Origin: Devosia ginsengisoli
GTDB taxonomy: Bacteria; Pseudomonadota; Alphaproteobacteria; Rhizobiales; Devosiaceae
NCBI RefSeq assembly: GCF_024707105.1
Contig: NZ_JANQAJ010000011.1
Location: 693,488 to 757,487, forward strand
Direction: 5' to 3'
Length of the DNA: 64,000 nt
A model generated the notes under the pieces. That model was not told where the DNA came from, searched no databases, and saw nothing but the letters and a program-made list of their open reading frames with translations. The translations under genes and the position numbers were made by a program. The stretch's first letter is position 1; every line of letters begins with the position of its first letter. Positions 37,401 to 51,662 of this stretch are shown piece after piece.

Positions 37401-37504
37401 AGAAGGTTTAGCCCCGATCGCTTATAAAGTTCACTTTTTGTTCTTGCCCGACTTCCCCGGACCAGCTAGGCTTTCCGCCAGCGTTGCAAGTGTAGAGACT
37501 CGTC

Positions 37505-38905
37505 TTGGCCAAATCCCGTTCTTCCTTCGTCTGCCAGGCCTGTGGGGCCGTGACCTCGCGCTGGCAGGGGCGGTGCGATGCCTGTGGCGAGTGGAACACC
37601 ATTGTCGAGGAAATCACCGATAGCGGCGTGGGCGCGGGGCCGAAATCGGCCAAGGCCAATGGACGGCCGACCAATCTGGTGCCGCTGTCCGGGGAAACGG
37701 AGAGCGCGGCGCGGGTGGTGACGGGGCTGGCGGAACTGGATCGGGTGACCGGCGGCGGGTTCGTCAAGGGTTCGGCGCTGCTGGTGGGCGGCGATCCGGG
37801 AATCGGCAAATCGACGCTGCTGCTGCAGGCAGCGGCGGCTTTGGCCAACCAAAGCAAGCGCGTCGTCTACGTTTCAGGCGAAGAGGCGGTGGCGCAGGTG
37901 CGGCTGCGGGCGCAACGGCTGGGGCTGGGCGAGGCCAATGTGATGCTGGCGGCCGAGACCAATGTGGAAATCATTCTCGCCACGCTGGAAAACGGCCCTG
38001 CCCCGGACCTGGTCATCATCGATTCCATCCAGACGCTGTGGACCGACCGGGTGGACAGCGCGCCCGGCACGGTGACGCAGGTGCGCACTTCGGCACAGGC
38101 GCTGACGCGCTTCGCCAAGAAGAGCGGCGCGGCGGTGGTGCTGGTGGGGCATGTGACCAAGGACGGGCAGATCGCCGGGCCCCGCGTGGTGGAGCATATG
38201 GTCGATGCCGTGCTCTATTTCGAGGGCGATGCCAGCCATACGTTCCGCATTTTGCGCGGCGTGAAGAACCGCTATGGCGCGACGGACGAGATCGGGGTGT
38301 TCGCCATGACCGAACTTGGGCTGGAGCAGGTGGCCAATCCCTCGGCGCTGTTCCTCGACCAGCGCGACGAGGGCGCGGCCGGTTCGGCGGTGTTTGCCGG
38401 CATGGAGGGGACGCGGCCGATATTGATCGAAATCCAGGCGCTGGTGGCCCCCTCCCCGCTCGGCACGCCAAGACGGGCAGTGGTGGGCTGGGATAGCTCG
38501 CGGCTCTCCATGGTGCTGGCCGTGCTGGAAACGCGCTGCGGGGTACGGATCGGCGCCAATGACATCTATCTCAATGTGGCGGGCGGGTTGAAGATCAACG
38601 AGCCGGCGGCGGACCTGGCGGTGGCGGCGGCGCTGATCTCGTCGCTCACCAGTTCGCCCTTGCCGAAGGATGCGGTCTATTTCGGGGAAATCTCGCTGGC
38701 CGGCGGAATCCGGCCGGTAGCGCATGGTTCGCTGCGGCTGCGCGAGGCGCAGAAGCTGGGCTTCAAATCGGTCTCGACGGGGCGGCTGGGCACGGCGGAC
38801 CGGGCGTCGGGGCTGGCGGTGTCGGAGTTTTCGGCGCTGTCGGAGCTGGTGGGGCGGATCGCGGCGGCGGGCAAGCCGCGGGAGCCGGAGCGGGAGGAAT
38901 GGTAA
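37505..38905 (+). CDS. radA: DNA repair protein RadA
   Basis: 466 residues with a TTG start (the alternative would remove the zinc finger). C4 zinc finger Cys10-Cys13-Cys24-Cys27, RecA-like core with GDPGIGKSTLLLQ, the RadA-specific KNRYGATDE (KNRFG motif), then the Lon-protease-like C-terminal domain. Helps branch migration during recombination repair. Confidence 0.95.
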   Translation: MAKSRSSFVCQACGAVTSRWQGRCDACGEWNTIVEEITDSGVGAGPKSAKANGRPTNLVPLSGETESAARVVTGLAELDRVTGGGFVKGSALLVGGDPGIGKSTLLLQAAAALANQSKRVVYVSGEEAVAQVRLRAQRLGLGEANVMLAAETNVEIILATLENGPAPDLVIIDSIQTLWTDRVDSAPGTVTQVRTSAQALTRFAKKSGAAVVLVGHVTKDGQIAGPRVVEHMVDAVLYFEGDASHTFRILRGVKNRYGATDEIGVFAMTELGLEQVANPSALFLDQRDEGAAGSAVFAGMEGTRPILIEIQALVAPSPLGTPRRAVVGWDSSRLSMVLAVLETRCGVRIGANDIYLNVAGGLKINEPAADLAVAAALISSLTSSPLPKDAVYFGEISLAGGIRPVAHGSLRLREAQKLGFKSVSTGRLGTADRASGLAVSEFSALSELVGRIAAAGKPREPEREEW

Positions 38906-47422: not shown

Positions 47423-48994
47423 ATGCACAGCACAGATACGCAAGACCGCCCGCAATCGATCCTCATCGTCGACTTCGGTTCGCAAGTCACCCAGCTGATT
47501 GCGCGCCGCATTCGAGAGACCGGCGTCTATTGCGAAATCCACCCCTTCCAGAGCGCCGGCGCCGCCATGTTGGCGATGCAGCCGGCCGGCGTGGTGCTGT
47601 CAGGCGGCCCGGCTTCGACGCTGGACGAGAATGCGCCCACCATCGACCCGGCAATCCTAACTGCGGGCGTGCCGATCCTGGGTATCTGCTATGGGCAGCA
47701 GGCTTTGTGCATGGCCTTGGGCGGCAAGGTGGAGGCGGGGCACCACCGCGAATTCGGCCGGGCGGAAGTCAAGGTCGAGAAGGCTGCTTCGCTCTATGAC
47801 GGCGTGTGGGCGCTGGGCAGCGAGCATCAGGTGTGGATGAGCCATGGCGACCGCGTCGTGGCCCTGCCCGAGGGGTTCGAGGTGGTCGGCACCTCGGCCA
47901 ATGCGCCCTTTGCCATGATCGCCAACGAGGCACGGCGCATCTGGGCGGTGCAGTTCCACCCCGAAGTGGTGCATACGCCCGATGGCGCCAAGCTCTATGC
48001 CAATTTCGTGCACAAGATCTGCGGCGTGGACGCCAACTGGACAATGGCGGCCTACCGCCAGAAGATGATCGAGAAAATCCGTGCCCAGGTGGGCAGCGGC
48101 AAGGTGATCTGCGGGCTTTCGGGCGGGGTCGATTCCTCGGTCGCGGCCGTGCTGATCCACGAGGCGATCGGCGACCAGCTCACCTGCATCTATGTCGATC
48201 ATGGGCTGATGCGGCTCAACGAGAGCGAGCAGGTCGTGACGATGTTCCGCGACCAGTACAATATTCCGCTGGTGCATGTGGATGCGTCCAAGGTGTTTTT
48301 GCGGGAACTCGAGGGGCAATCGGACCCCGAGACCAAGCGCAAGATCATCGGGCGGCTGTTCATCGAGACATTCGAGGAAGAAGCCAGAAAGCTGGGCGGG
48401 GCGCAGTTCCTGGCGCAGGGCACGCTGTATCCGGACGTGATCGAATCCGTGTCGTTTACTGGCGGGCCGTCGGTGACGATCAAGAGCCATCACAATGTGG
48501 GCGGGCTGCCCGAGCGCATGAACATGCAGCTCGTCGAGCCGCTGCGCGAGCTGTTCAAGGACGAAGTGCGCGTGCTGGGGCGCGAATTGGGCCTGCCCGA
48601 GAGCTTTATCGGCCGGCACCCCTTCCCCGGCCCGGGCCTTGCCATCCGCTGCCCGGGCGGCATCACGCCGGAGAAGCTGGACATATTGCGGCAGGCGGAC
48701 GCCATCTATCTCGATGAAATCCGCAAGTCGGGCCAATATGACAAGATCTGGCAGGCTTTTGCCGTGCTGCTGCCGGTGCAGACGGTGGGCGTGATGGGCG
48801 ACGGGCGGACCTATGAATTCGTCTGCGCGTTGCGCGCCGTGACCTCGGTCGACGGCATGACGGCCGATTTCTACCAGTTCGACATGAACTTCCTCGGCAA
48901 GACCGCCACGCGCATCATCAACGAAGTGCGCGGCATCAACCGGGTGGTCTATGACGTCACCAGCAAGCCGCCCGGCACCATCGAGTGGGAATAG
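47423..48994 (+). CDS. guaA: GMP synthase (glutamine-hydrolysing)
   Basis: 523 residues. Class I glutaminase: Cys89 in GICYGQQAL, His and Glu in [13 protein letters not shown] pyrophosphatase: [13 protein letters not shown]-terminal dimerisation domain ending [10 protein letters not shown]. Turns XMP into GMP. With purF and guaB the window holds three purine genes, though in separate transcripts. Confidence 0.97.
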
Positions 48995-49012
48995 TGCCAG
49001 GCGGCGCGATAG

Positions 49013-49705
49013 CTACTTGTAGCGGTCGTGCCGGCGTACCCAGTCCATGCCTTCTTCCTCGTTGCGGCCCTTGGGCATGAGGTCGAGCATGGCGTAGGTG
49101 CCCATCATCACCTCCACGCCTCGGCCGAAGGTGGAGTAGGTGTGAAAGATATTGCCCGCCTCGTCCTTGAAGAAGGCGCTCACACCGGGCCATTCCTCGC
49201 CGGTCTCGTCCCACTCGCCGAAATTGTAGTCGATATGGCCGCTGGTCACCTCTTCGGGCGTGAAGCTGACCCGGAAATCGTAGTTGAACGGGCTGCCATT
49301 CGATGAGACCCAGCGGAATTGCCAGCCCATGCGACGGCGGTAGCGCTCGAGATCGGCCAGCGGGGCGCGCGACACCGCGACCATGGTGACGTCGTGATGG
49401 GCCAGATGCAGATTCATGCCGTCGGTGTGATCGGCCATATAGGAACAGCTCGGGCAGCCTTCCTTCCATCCCGGCGCGAACATGAAATGCTGCACCAGAA
49501 GCTGCGACCGGCCGTCGAACAGCTCGGCAAGCGTGCGCGGCCCCTCCGGCGTGTCGAACACGTATTCCTTCTCGATACGGACCCATGGCAAGGCAAGGCG
49601 CTCCTGCGCGACCTTGTCGCGAAGATGGGTGACCTCTTTCTCCGCTTTCAGGAGGTCCCGGCGGGCAGCCAGCCACTCATCGCGTGAAACTACAGCATGT
49701 TGCAT
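49013..49705 (-). CDS. DUF899 (thioredoxin-like) family protein
   Basis: 230 residues. VVSRDEWLAARRDLLKAEKEVTHLRDKVAQERLALPWV, then APGWKEGCPSCSYMADHTDG with a CPSC motif at the place of the thioredoxin CXXC, and SSFGRGVEVMMGTYAMLDL-like end. The family is predicted to be a thioredoxin-like oxidoreductase; activity unproven. A small membrane-protein gene lies 18 bp upstream on the same strand. Confidence 0.88.
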   Translation of the reverse strand: MQHAVVSRDEWLAARRDLLKAEKEVTHLRDKVAQERLALPWVRIEKEYVFDTPEGPRTLAELFDGRSQLLVQHFMFAPGWKEGCPSCSYMADHTDGMNLHLAHHDVTMVAVSRAPLADLERYRRRMGWQFRWVSSNGSPFNYDFRVSFTPEEVTSGHIDYNFGEWDETGEEWPGVSAFFKDEAGNIFHTYSTFGRGVEVMMGTYAMLDLMPKGRNEEEGMDWVRRHDRYK

Positions 49706-49723
49706 TGTCGGTATCCTTGGGGT

Positions 49724-49984
49724 TTAGCGCGGGAAACGGGCCGATACGAGGGTCAGCCACGGTGACAGATGAAAGATGGCCATCAGGAGATACATCAGGG
49801 CCATATCGTTGATCGGCGACCAGGGCATGGCGGAAGTGCAGATGATCATGCCGGGCGAGCTGACGGCGGAGATGCCGCCCATCAGCGCGAAGGTAGGGGC
49901 AGCGGCGAATCTGAGCCAACCGGGCACATCGACCTTCCATGCGCGTAACGAAACGCCCGTCCTCTTTGTTGCCAATACCGCCAC
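49724..49984 (-). CDS. Small membrane protein, hypothetical
   Basis: 86 residues. GTG start with GGAGGA at good spacing. Two hydrophobic helices (FAAAPTFALMGGISAV and MALMYLLMAIFHLSPWLTLVSA) with a MIICTSAMPWSPIND loop. No named domain, but the SMPxSPxxxMxxMYLLM pattern recurs in small proteins of this order. Likely one transcript with the DUF899 gene. Function unknown. Confidence 0.65.
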   Translation of the reverse strand: MAVLATKRTGVSLRAWKVDVPGWLRFAAAPTFALMGGISAVSSPGMIICTSAMPWSPINDMALMYLLMAIFHLSPWLTLVSARFPR

Positions 49985-50075
49985 GTCCGTTCCTCCATCG
50001 TGATGCGAGAACGCTATTCCGGCGGAGAGCCAGGGCGGGAGTTACAAGTGTGACGGGATTCCGCGAGGGTTGCGG

Positions 50076-50119
50076 TTGACCGCGGTCATCGGTCGTTCTA
50101 GAAAGAACAAATAGGGAAC
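50076..50119 (+). promoter_or_regulatory. Promoter with alphaproteobacterial LexA box
   Basis: TTGACC (50076-50081), 17 bp, TAGAAA (50099-50104). GAAC-N7-GAAC lies at 50105-50119, the reverse of the known alphaproteobacterial SOS box GTTC-N7-GTTC; it covers the expected start of transcription and ends one base before the ATG. A second GTTCT/AGAAC dyad (50095-50108) overlaps it. Confidence 0.6.
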
Positions 50120-50120
50120 A

Positions 50121-50786
50121 ATGAGCCATGTCATGGAGATGCAATTCGAGCTTTTCGGTGGGGCGTCTGCTGTAGCGGAAGCGAAGGCGCTGGAGCATCG
50201 GTATTATTTCACACTGCTGCCGCCCCCGGCTCTGGCGCAGGAAATCGAGCGCGGGGCGGAGCGGCTGGGGCGGCGGTTCGGCGTGCGCAATGTGGTGCGG
50301 GCCGAGCGGCAGCATGTGTCGCTGCATATGGTGCAGCGCGGGCGGGAAATCGCCGGCGATCTGCTGCATGAGGCGCTGGAGGTGGGCGAAGCGGTACGGC
50401 GGCCGGGCTTCGATATCGTGTTCGACACGGTGCAGACCTTTGCCGGCAAACGACCGAAGACAGGCGGACGGGCGCAATATCCGACCGTGCTGAGCTGTTC
50501 GAACGGGGCGCGGGACCTGCTGGGACTCTACGGCGATATCGGGCGGGAGATGCAGCGACGCGGCTTGCGGGCCGGACGCCCTTCGATCGCGCCGCATCTG
50601 ACGATCTGGTATGGGCCCGAACGCGTGCCGGAGCGGCAATTGCGGCGGCCCTATCGCTGGGCGGTGCGATCGTTCTGGCTGGTGCATACGGTGCCGGGCA
50701 TAAGACGGCCCGATTATCTGGCCGAATGGCCGCTGGGGCGCATGGGCGGAGGGCAGCACCCTCCCGACCTGGCGGGCATACGATGA
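50121..50786 (+). CDS. 2'-5' RNA ligase / 2H phosphoesterase family protein, probably SOS-controlled
   Basis: 221 residues. Two catalytic motifs at the expected distance: HVSLH at 65-69 and HLTIW at 159-163. Members (ThpR/LigT) cut or join 2'-5' linked or cyclic phosphodiesters in RNA. The N-terminal MEMQFELFGG is hydrophobic but not a signal. The LexA-type box directly upstream suggests induction by DNA damage; I know of no established SOS role for this family, so that is inference from one site. Confidence 0.85.
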   Translation: MSHVMEMQFELFGGASAVAEAKALEHRYYFTLLPPPALAQEIERGAERLGRRFGVRNVVRAERQHVSLHMVQRGREIAGDLLHEALEVGEAVRRPGFDIVFDTVQTFAGKRPKTGGRAQYPTVLSCSNGARDLLGLYGDIGREMQRRGLRAGRPSIAPHLTIWYGPERVPERQLRRPYRWAVRSFWLVHTVPGIRRPDYLAEWPLGRMGGGQHPPDLAGIR

Positions 50787-50867
50787 GGCGATTCCGGGGG
50801 CGCATTTGCTTTCCATGGGAGCCATGCTAAACGTGCGCGCAATTCGAGTGACGACCTTAGGCAGGCC

Positions 50868-51662
50868 ATGTCCCAGGACAATATCTTCCAGGAAATCGAT
50901 GAGGAGCTGCGCAGCGATCGCATGCGCGCCCTGTGGCGGCGTTTCGGGCCCTATGTGATCGGCGCAGCCGTGGCCGTAGTGGCGCTGGTGGCTGTCAATG
51001 AAGGCTGGTCCTGGTATCACGCCAACAATGCGGCCCAGTCGTCCGACGAGCTTTATGCCGCGTTCGACCTGATCGATGGCGGCGACCTGCCGGCAGCGCA
51101 GAGCCAGCTCGATACGCTGATTGCCGACGGTTCGGGTAGCTATCCGGTGCTGGCGCAGTTCCGCAAGGCGGGCGTGATGGCCCGTGAAGGCGCCATTGCC
51201 GACGCCGTGGCCGCCTATGACGAGCTGGCCAATAGCCAGTCCAATCCGCGCCTGCGCGAGCTGGCGCTGGTGCTGGGCGCCACGCTGATGGTGGACCAGG
51301 GCACGCTGGCCGATGTCGAGTCGCGGGTGGGCAGCATTGCCGCCGAAGGCAGCCCGCTGCGCAATGCGGCGCGCGAGGCGCTGGGGCTGGCGCAGTACAA
51401 GGCTGGCGACTTCACCGCCGCGCAGGCGAGTTTCGAGGCCGTGGTGAACGACCCGATGGCCCAGAGCAATGTGCGCAACCGCATGGGCTATTATCTGGCG
51501 CAACTGCTGTCGCAGGGCGCCATTGCCGACGCGCCGGCGGCTGATGCCGAGGCCGCGGCCAGCGCCATCGACGAAATCGTCAGCGATGAAGCGCCTGTCG
51601 CCGAGACCCCGACAGCGGATGAGCCTGCTGCCACCACCGAGGCCGAACCGGTCGCTGAATAA
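50868..51662 (+). CDS. YfgM-like TPR membrane protein
   Basis: 264 residues. Cytosolic N-terminus (MSQDNIFQEIDEELRSDRMRALWRRFG), one TM (about 27-48), then periplasmic TPR-like repeats (residues 60-215) and an acidic Ala/Pro/Glu tail (from about 222). YfgM works near the Sec translocon with periplasmic chaperones. der follows 40 bp later; bamB, usual between them, is absent. Confidence 0.85.
   Translation: MSQDNIFQEIDEELRSDRMRALWRRFGPYVIGAAVAVVALVAVNEGWSWYHANNAAQSSDELYAAFDLIDGGDLPAAQSQLDTLIADGSGSYPVLAQFRKAGVMAREGAIADAVAAYDELANSQSNPRLRELALVLGATLMVDQGTLADVESRVGSIAAEGSPLRNAAREALGLAQYKAGDFTAAQASFEAVVNDPMAQSNVRNRMGYYLAQLLSQGAIADAPAADAEAAASAIDEIVSDEAPVAETPTADEPAATTEAEPVAE

Follow-up and report, generated by a model that had tools for sequence, protein, structure and literature searches.

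In our study, we found that a 2H phosphoesterase gene belongs to a family separate from ThpR and that it is almost certainly under LexA (SOS) control. Control by LexA, as had been predicted for this gene, was strongly supported by the conservation of a LexA-type box upstream of the orthologues and by the lack of a box at the same locus in congeners without the gene. The encoded protein is very likely an active 2H enzyme, judging from its motifs and its modeled fold, and it would probably dock on the replication clamp (DnaN) through its N-terminal tail. As an explanation of the whole, we lean toward an SOS-induced, clamp-tethered 2H enzyme that would trim ends at damaged replication sites. The window is the whole stretch of DNA that was analyzed (64,000 nucleotides), and the features of the locus are listed in Table 1.

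Table 1. Features of the 2H phosphoesterase locus, with positions in the window.
Feature	Position	Strand	Remark
-35 element TTGACC	50076..50081	+	TTGAC(C/T) in 19/19 same-genus loci (L001-L019)
-10 element TAGAAA	50099..50104	+	17 bp spacer from the -35 element; missing from the consensus-scanner list
LexA-type operator GAACAAATAGGGAAC (- strand: GTTCCCTATTTGTTC)	50105..50119	.	overlaps the expected +1
2H phosphoesterase gene, 221 aa	50121..50786	+	orthologues favor a start at 50133
Clamp-binding-like peptide QFELF, residues 8-12	50142..50156	+	in the predicted disordered tail
First 2H motif HVSL (His65, Ser67)	50313..50324	+	motifs tabulated over the family
Second 2H motif HLTI (His159, Thr161)	50595..50606	+	motifs tabulated over the family
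Tyr164, equivalent to Arg130 of E. coli LigT (fifth residue after the second His)	50610..50612	+	

LexA Box and Promoter

The sequence GAACAAATAGGGAAC was found to be a perfect GAAC-N7-GAAC box (GTTC-N7-GTTC on the other strand), which ends one base short of the ATG at 50121. The promoter TTGACC-N17-TAGAAA matched the consensus at 9 of 12 positions, and the expected transcription start lies inside the box. The original prediction of a LexA box over the transcription start, one base before the ATG (50105-50119 and 50121, respectively), was confirmed, as was its good N17 promoter. The promoter was missed by the consensus scan because the scanner demands a T at position 6 of the -10 element. TTGAC(C/T) with a spacer of 16-18 bp was found directly before the box in all the 19 same-genus loci, this one included. 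Across the 52 loci with a box, the highest promoter score averaged 8.1 of 12 against 7.1 in the shuffles, so the promoter is less clear outside the genus. The first ATG was missing in the orthologues L004-L006, whose proteins start with MEMQ or MEIQ; therefore, the true start of the 2H gene may be 50133.

Three matches to GAAC-N7-GAAC were found in the window, where 1.3 would be expected; at least as many occurred in 13 of 100 shuffles. In the whole genome, 105 boxes were found against 54 for the reversed pattern. A single box by itself is weak evidence, and it is the conservation of the sequence that makes the case. Of the 105 boxes, 40 were picked, in part for an AT-rich spacer, and their surroundings were read. 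Among these, boxes were found before genes matching LexA, RecA, UvrA, SSB, RmuC, and RadA, and another preceded an error-prone-polymerase-like gene that fell under the full-length cut-off, as no more than a fragment of it was read. The second LexA-type box of the window, GTTCACTTTTTGTTC (37429-37443), lies about 60 bp before radA (37505-38905; TIGR00416), and through it radA may also be under SOS control. The third box (37759-37773) lies inside radA and looks like a chance match. The recA gene of the same genome (G000:C5:173710-174496) was preceded by a perfect box and was found in two frames, which cover domain positions 1-189 and 189-262, respectively; this looks like an assembly or sequencing slip.

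Conservation and Genomic Context of the Box

The search of 151 genomes (the genome under study and its relatives) gave a match in 27, and 22 of the matches were convincing, own genome included; L023-L027 were left out as weak matches. The family was then widened by profile searches in class, order, and phylum samples of 385, 347, and 299 genomes, respectively, and in 17 genomes of one further order, the loci being the best matches (30 at most) of each genome search. A scan of orthologue upstream regions for GTTC-N7-GTTC, as had been proposed along with the prediction, found the box to be conserved. All the 22 convincing matches of the first search, the gene under study among them, had a perfect box just upstream. 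In the wider family, 52 of the 63 alphaproteobacterial members among the matches listed had one in the 300 bp that precede the first strand. After thinning to below 60% identity, it was present in 30 of 40 alphaproteobacterial representatives, again among the matches listed. Canonical alphaproteobacterial ThpR genes, used as a control, had the box in 2 of 43 cases (at -271 and -206) and beta/gamma ThpR-like genes in 1 of 7, and the reversed control pattern was found upstream of 2 of the 63 family members. The background elsewhere in the same loci was 12 boxes per 222,813 bases, or about 0.015 per upstream window. The N7 spacer was also constrained, and 51 of the 52 boxed loci had T at spacer positions 9 and 11.

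The perfect box was absent from the upstream window of 11 of the 63 alphaproteobacterial members, none of which contained a one-mismatch box either. One of them, L074, stands second in a tandem pair, and there the box precedes the first copy. The box-less set also included all four members of family f89 (L069, L078, L154, and L155); in three of the four f89 genomes the refined box pattern exceeded its control. Outside the Alphaproteobacteria, the alpha-type box was absent in all six members. A looser scan of these members gave single one-mismatch matches only (L176 and L178), and the gamma/beta-type LexA box was found in none of the six in exact form and with one mismatch only in L176. As a positive control, recA had a perfect box in 8 of the 29 relatives that could be assessed; when boxes with one mismatch were counted too, all 29 had one. 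As recA mostly carries imperfect boxes, a missing perfect box alone does not exclude LexA control. When one mismatch was allowed, the family stayed at 52 of 63 and ThpR climbed to 14 of 43, which is the chance level for the looser pattern; the imperfect boxes of recA are therefore weaker evidence than the perfect boxes of the family.

Several rows were left out of these sets. L149 and L180 (fragment or in-frame stop) were removed from the tree and the counts, and L081, L083, L085, L096, L102, and L165 were taken out of the ThpR set because their frame was unread or was cut by the end of a contig. Loci that repeated the same gene (L068, L108-L117, L123-L125, L127, L153, L156, and L177) and second tandem copies were not counted.

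The guaA-tpr locus was compared in 24 same-genus genomes, 17 of which lacked the 2H gene. No box was found within 1.5 kb upstream of tpr in any of these 17 congeners, whereas six of the seven with the 2H gene contained one. In 23 loci that were sampled and inspected, with the neighbors named by eye, the neighbors varied among families and most loci kept the box; L135 and L145 shared their neighbors. As the box is kept amid changing neighbors and is gone where the gene is absent, it belongs to the 2H gene and travels with it. The number of matches in the window (three against 1.3 expected) and the position of tpr, which begins about 80 bp downstream of the 2H gene on the same strand, would suit a chance match or a box that serves the downstream tpr/der instead of the 2H gene. 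Such an explanation is highly improbable, since the box is conserved in 52 of 63 members, persists across neighborhoods, and is not found upstream of tpr in the 17 congeners without the gene. A chance origin of the box was rejected on its conservation and on its absence (0/17) from the gene-less locus.

The 2H gene was found to be accessory and patchy in the genus. In its own order, 27 of 347 sampled genomes contained a member at E 1e-24 or better, own included, among the matches listed. Distant members were present on some Paracoccus plasmids, with a perfect box in one of the three that were read. Neither operon partners nor a pathway could be read from the context of the 23 sampled loci. The stretch from guaA to tpr (window 48994-50868) was variable within the genus. 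The distance from the guaA stop to tpr was 85-870 bp in 12 of the 17 gene-less genomes and 787-947 bp in three of the seven gene-bearing genomes. The family member of Propionivibrio soli (L118) was also preceded by guaA, as read by eye, and the region after guaA is possibly an insertion hot spot. Adjoining second 2H copies were found at L074, L075, L076, and L131 (genomes G154, G429, G507, and G689) and in G1043; the tandem pair of G154 contained a LexA-type box before the first copy. L174 (G946), outside the Alphaproteobacteria, ends beside a gene read by eye as Lhr-helicase-like, and L148 (G755) lies near a methylated-DNA-methyltransferase-like gene, likewise read by eye.

Protein Family and Fold

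The protein passed the Pfam LigT_PEase cut-off narrowly (24.9 bits against 23.3) and contained both HxS/T motifs and the LigT fold, in agreement with the original prediction of a 2H phosphoesterase. The ThpR equivalog TIGR02258 gave only 20.2 bits against its curated cut-off of 65.7, and four of four sampled relatives, with 29.2-57.9 bits, were also below it. A true ThpR was found elsewhere in the same genome (G000:C14:709496-710020), and 73 of the 81 genomes searched contained a ThpR above the cut-off. The maximum-likelihood tree of 119 rows, which was midpoint-rooted and with a bootstrap not fully settled, separated 69 family rows from 50 ThpR rows with a split support of 100/99.

Both HxS/T motifs were present in nearly all family members, and the second was degraded in two of them (L073 and L140). 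The first motif was HxS in 50, HxT in 18, and HxM in 1 of the 69 members, whereas it was HxT in all 50 ThpR sequences. E. coli LigT opens 2',3'-cyclic phosphates, and its Arg130 (in the His125 numbering) is said to take the role of helix alpha7 of CNPase, according to the portion of PMC5283653 consulted. At this position, five residues after the second His, 61 of the 69 family members contained Tyr, three each Trp and Arg, and one each Phe and His, against Arg in 43 of 50 ThpR sequences. The changes at the Arg130 position and in the first motif suggest that the substrate of the family differs from that of ThpR.

Membership in ThpR was rejected on the TIGR02258 score, the separate ThpR of the genome, the tree split, and position 130; on the same grounds, the "2'-5' RNA ligase-like" identity given in the original prediction was unsupported. 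The fold and both 2H motifs are nevertheless shared with ThpR/LigT, and a damage-controlled LigT has a precedent in the Deinococcus cinA-ligT-recA operon, as described in the parts of PMC1978522 and PMC5552922 that were available. The gene might then be a second ThpR/LigT copy, that is, an RNA 2',3'-cyclic phosphodiesterase that cleans stress-made RNA or tRNA ends and has a tail unrelated to the clamp. We consider this unlikely, as the scores here and in all four relatives are below the cut-off in the presence of a separate ThpR, the clade is distinct (100/99), Arg130 is replaced by Tyr, Trp, or Phe in 65 of 69 members, and the first motif reads HxS in 50 of the 69 members but HxT throughout the 50 ThpR sequences.

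The AlphaFold model had a mean pLDDT of 80.9. Its core was predicted with confidence, whereas residues 1-22 and 208-221 at the two termini were disordered, and the folded domain comprised residues 25-207. The nearest solved folds were those of E. coli LigT, with Z 18.9-19.2 over 170 residues at 2.4-2.5 A and 19% identity. The sequence search for a solved structure gave only two chance-level chondroitinase matches. Acb1 (phage anti-CBASS) and the poxvirus cGAMP phosphodiesterase had the same fold, with best-row Z values of 10.9 and 8.7, respectively, in a fold search where a fold missing from the results excludes nothing. These two folds, together with an active-site change that would suit a new substrate, a patchy gene in the genus, and distant relatives on some Paracoccus plasmids, would fit a defense or signaling enzyme that degrades cyclic (oligo)nucleotides and is switched on with the SOS response. 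However, the gene had no match in PHROGs or PADLOC, by which a phage or defense origin was rejected, and no defense-type neighbors were recognized by eye in the 23 sampled loci. The clamp-like tail and the LexA-type box point to DNA repair instead, and a defense role is thus quite improbable.

N-terminal Tail

Residues 1-22 form a tail with a pLDDT below 50 in the AlphaFold model. The tail before the domain had a median length of 23 residues in the family against 3 in alphaproteobacterial ThpR. The beta-clamp-binding motif is given in the consulted part of PMC11139829 as Q-phi-x-[LM]-[FL] or Q-phi-x-[LM]-x-[FL]. Similar motifs were found in the family tails, such as QFELF (this gene), QLDLF, QLCLF, QLSMF, QLSLDL, QLAFDF, and QLALPGF. 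The strict motif was present in 16 of 68 tails, against a mean of 0.57 and a maximum of 5 in 1000 shuffles, and was absent from 12,460 domain residues. QFELF fails the strict form, as it contains Phe and not an aliphatic residue at position 2. A relaxed motif, Q..[LMF]F / Q..[LMF].{1,2}[LFIM], which was chosen once the tails were already known, was present in 46 of 68 tails, against a mean of 4.6 and a maximum of 11 in 300 shuffles, and in 27 of 45 tails after thinning. Counted per residue, it occurred 46 times in 1,723 tail residues against 10 times in 12,460 domain residues. The gene starts were placed after the box for the tail analysis, and the motif was scored on 68 of the 69 family rows (L119 was left out); one of the seven beta/gamma ThpR-like rows was unscored.

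The motif was not conserved in every member. In the same-genus orthologues L013-L017 the Q was replaced by E or D, and the boxed members L075-L077, L128, L129, L131, L141, L181, and L122 lacked the motif. Outside the Alphaproteobacteria, five of six members contained the motif and none (0/6) the alpha-type box. As the motif is kept there without the box, selection on the motif itself is favored, and the box and the motif are partly independent. The motif was found in none of the 43 alphaproteobacterial ThpR sequences (0/43), which also speaks against a second ThpR/LigT copy. The proposed link of RNA repair or tRNA processing to the SOS response was unsupported as such; the clamp-like motif in the tails would place the enzyme at DNA under replication or repair and not at tRNA.

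Discussion

In the mechanism that we propose, LexA on 50105-50119 would cover the transcription start and keep the 2H gene off, and the RecA-triggered cleavage of LexA in the SOS response would free it. The folded domain, with its intact HxS and HxT motifs, would work as a two-histidine phosphodiesterase, and the flexible tail peptide (QFELF here) would bring the enzyme to the DnaN ring where DNA is replicated or repaired. There the enzyme might act on 3' ends that carry a cyclic phosphate, are of RNA type, or are blocked in another way, opening or trimming them for a polymerase or ligase to proceed; this last step is a guess. Cyclic-phosphate or RNA-type 3' ends within or next to DNA are preferred because members of the superfamily open 2',3'-cyclic phosphates and the tail points to the clamp. 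End processing with such a substrate class is put forward tentatively, the substrate being a guess from the superfamily.

A LexA-controlled, patchy 2H family that works from the replication clamp on RNA-type or cyclic-phosphate ends in damaged DNA, as a branch of the SOS response in Alphaproteobacteria, is, as a complete description, a possibility on which we would not yet count. Candidate sites of such ends include ribonucleotides, primers, and cleaved junctions, which is again a guess. To our knowledge, such a repair activity is known for no bacterial 2H enzyme. If the description is true, clamp-based repair in one of the major classes of bacteria would gain a phosphoesterase. At least two families go under the "2'-5' RNA ligase" names that are assigned automatically. 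For the clade described here, with its very probable LexA control and its probable place on the sliding clamp, the function is narrowed to a few testable options. The portions of the literature consulted contained no LexA-controlled or clamp-binding 2H/LigT gene; "2'-5' RNA ligase" is unsearchable as a name, and an earlier mention is possible.

Among the known systems, ThpR/LigT (TIGR02258; E. coli LigT 5LDI-5LDQ, 4QAK) shares with this protein the 2H fold, the two HxS/T motifs, and a core of about 180 residues. In contrast to ThpR/LigT, the protein has 19% identity to E. coli LigT, is under the family cut-off, and belongs to a family with Tyr, Trp, or Phe in place of Arg130, a LexA-type box, and a disordered tail with a clamp-like motif. 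The phosphodiesterase/ligase domain of ASCC1 (8TLY, 8TUK) has the same fold (Z 14.2-14.6), but it is eukaryotic, occurs with a KH domain, and shows 8-9% identity. ASCC1 is linked to alkylation-damage repair in animals.

The ligT gene of Deinococcus (COG1514 LigT) is placed by the consulted parts of PMC1978522 and PMC5552922 in the damage-induced cinA-ligT-recA operon, which is RDRM/DdrO-controlled. It resembles the present gene, by description, as a LigT gene under a DNA-damage regulator, whereas its regulator is DdrO and not LexA, and it shares an operon with recA. Hda contains a clamp-binding motif in its disordered N-terminus (PMC11139829, in the part available), and the short motif in a disordered N-terminus is what this family has in common with Hda and other beta-clamp clients (QLxLF / QLxLxF). 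Unlike in those clients, the motif sits here on a 2H phosphoesterase and contains Phe at position 2, and the clamp binding is putative.
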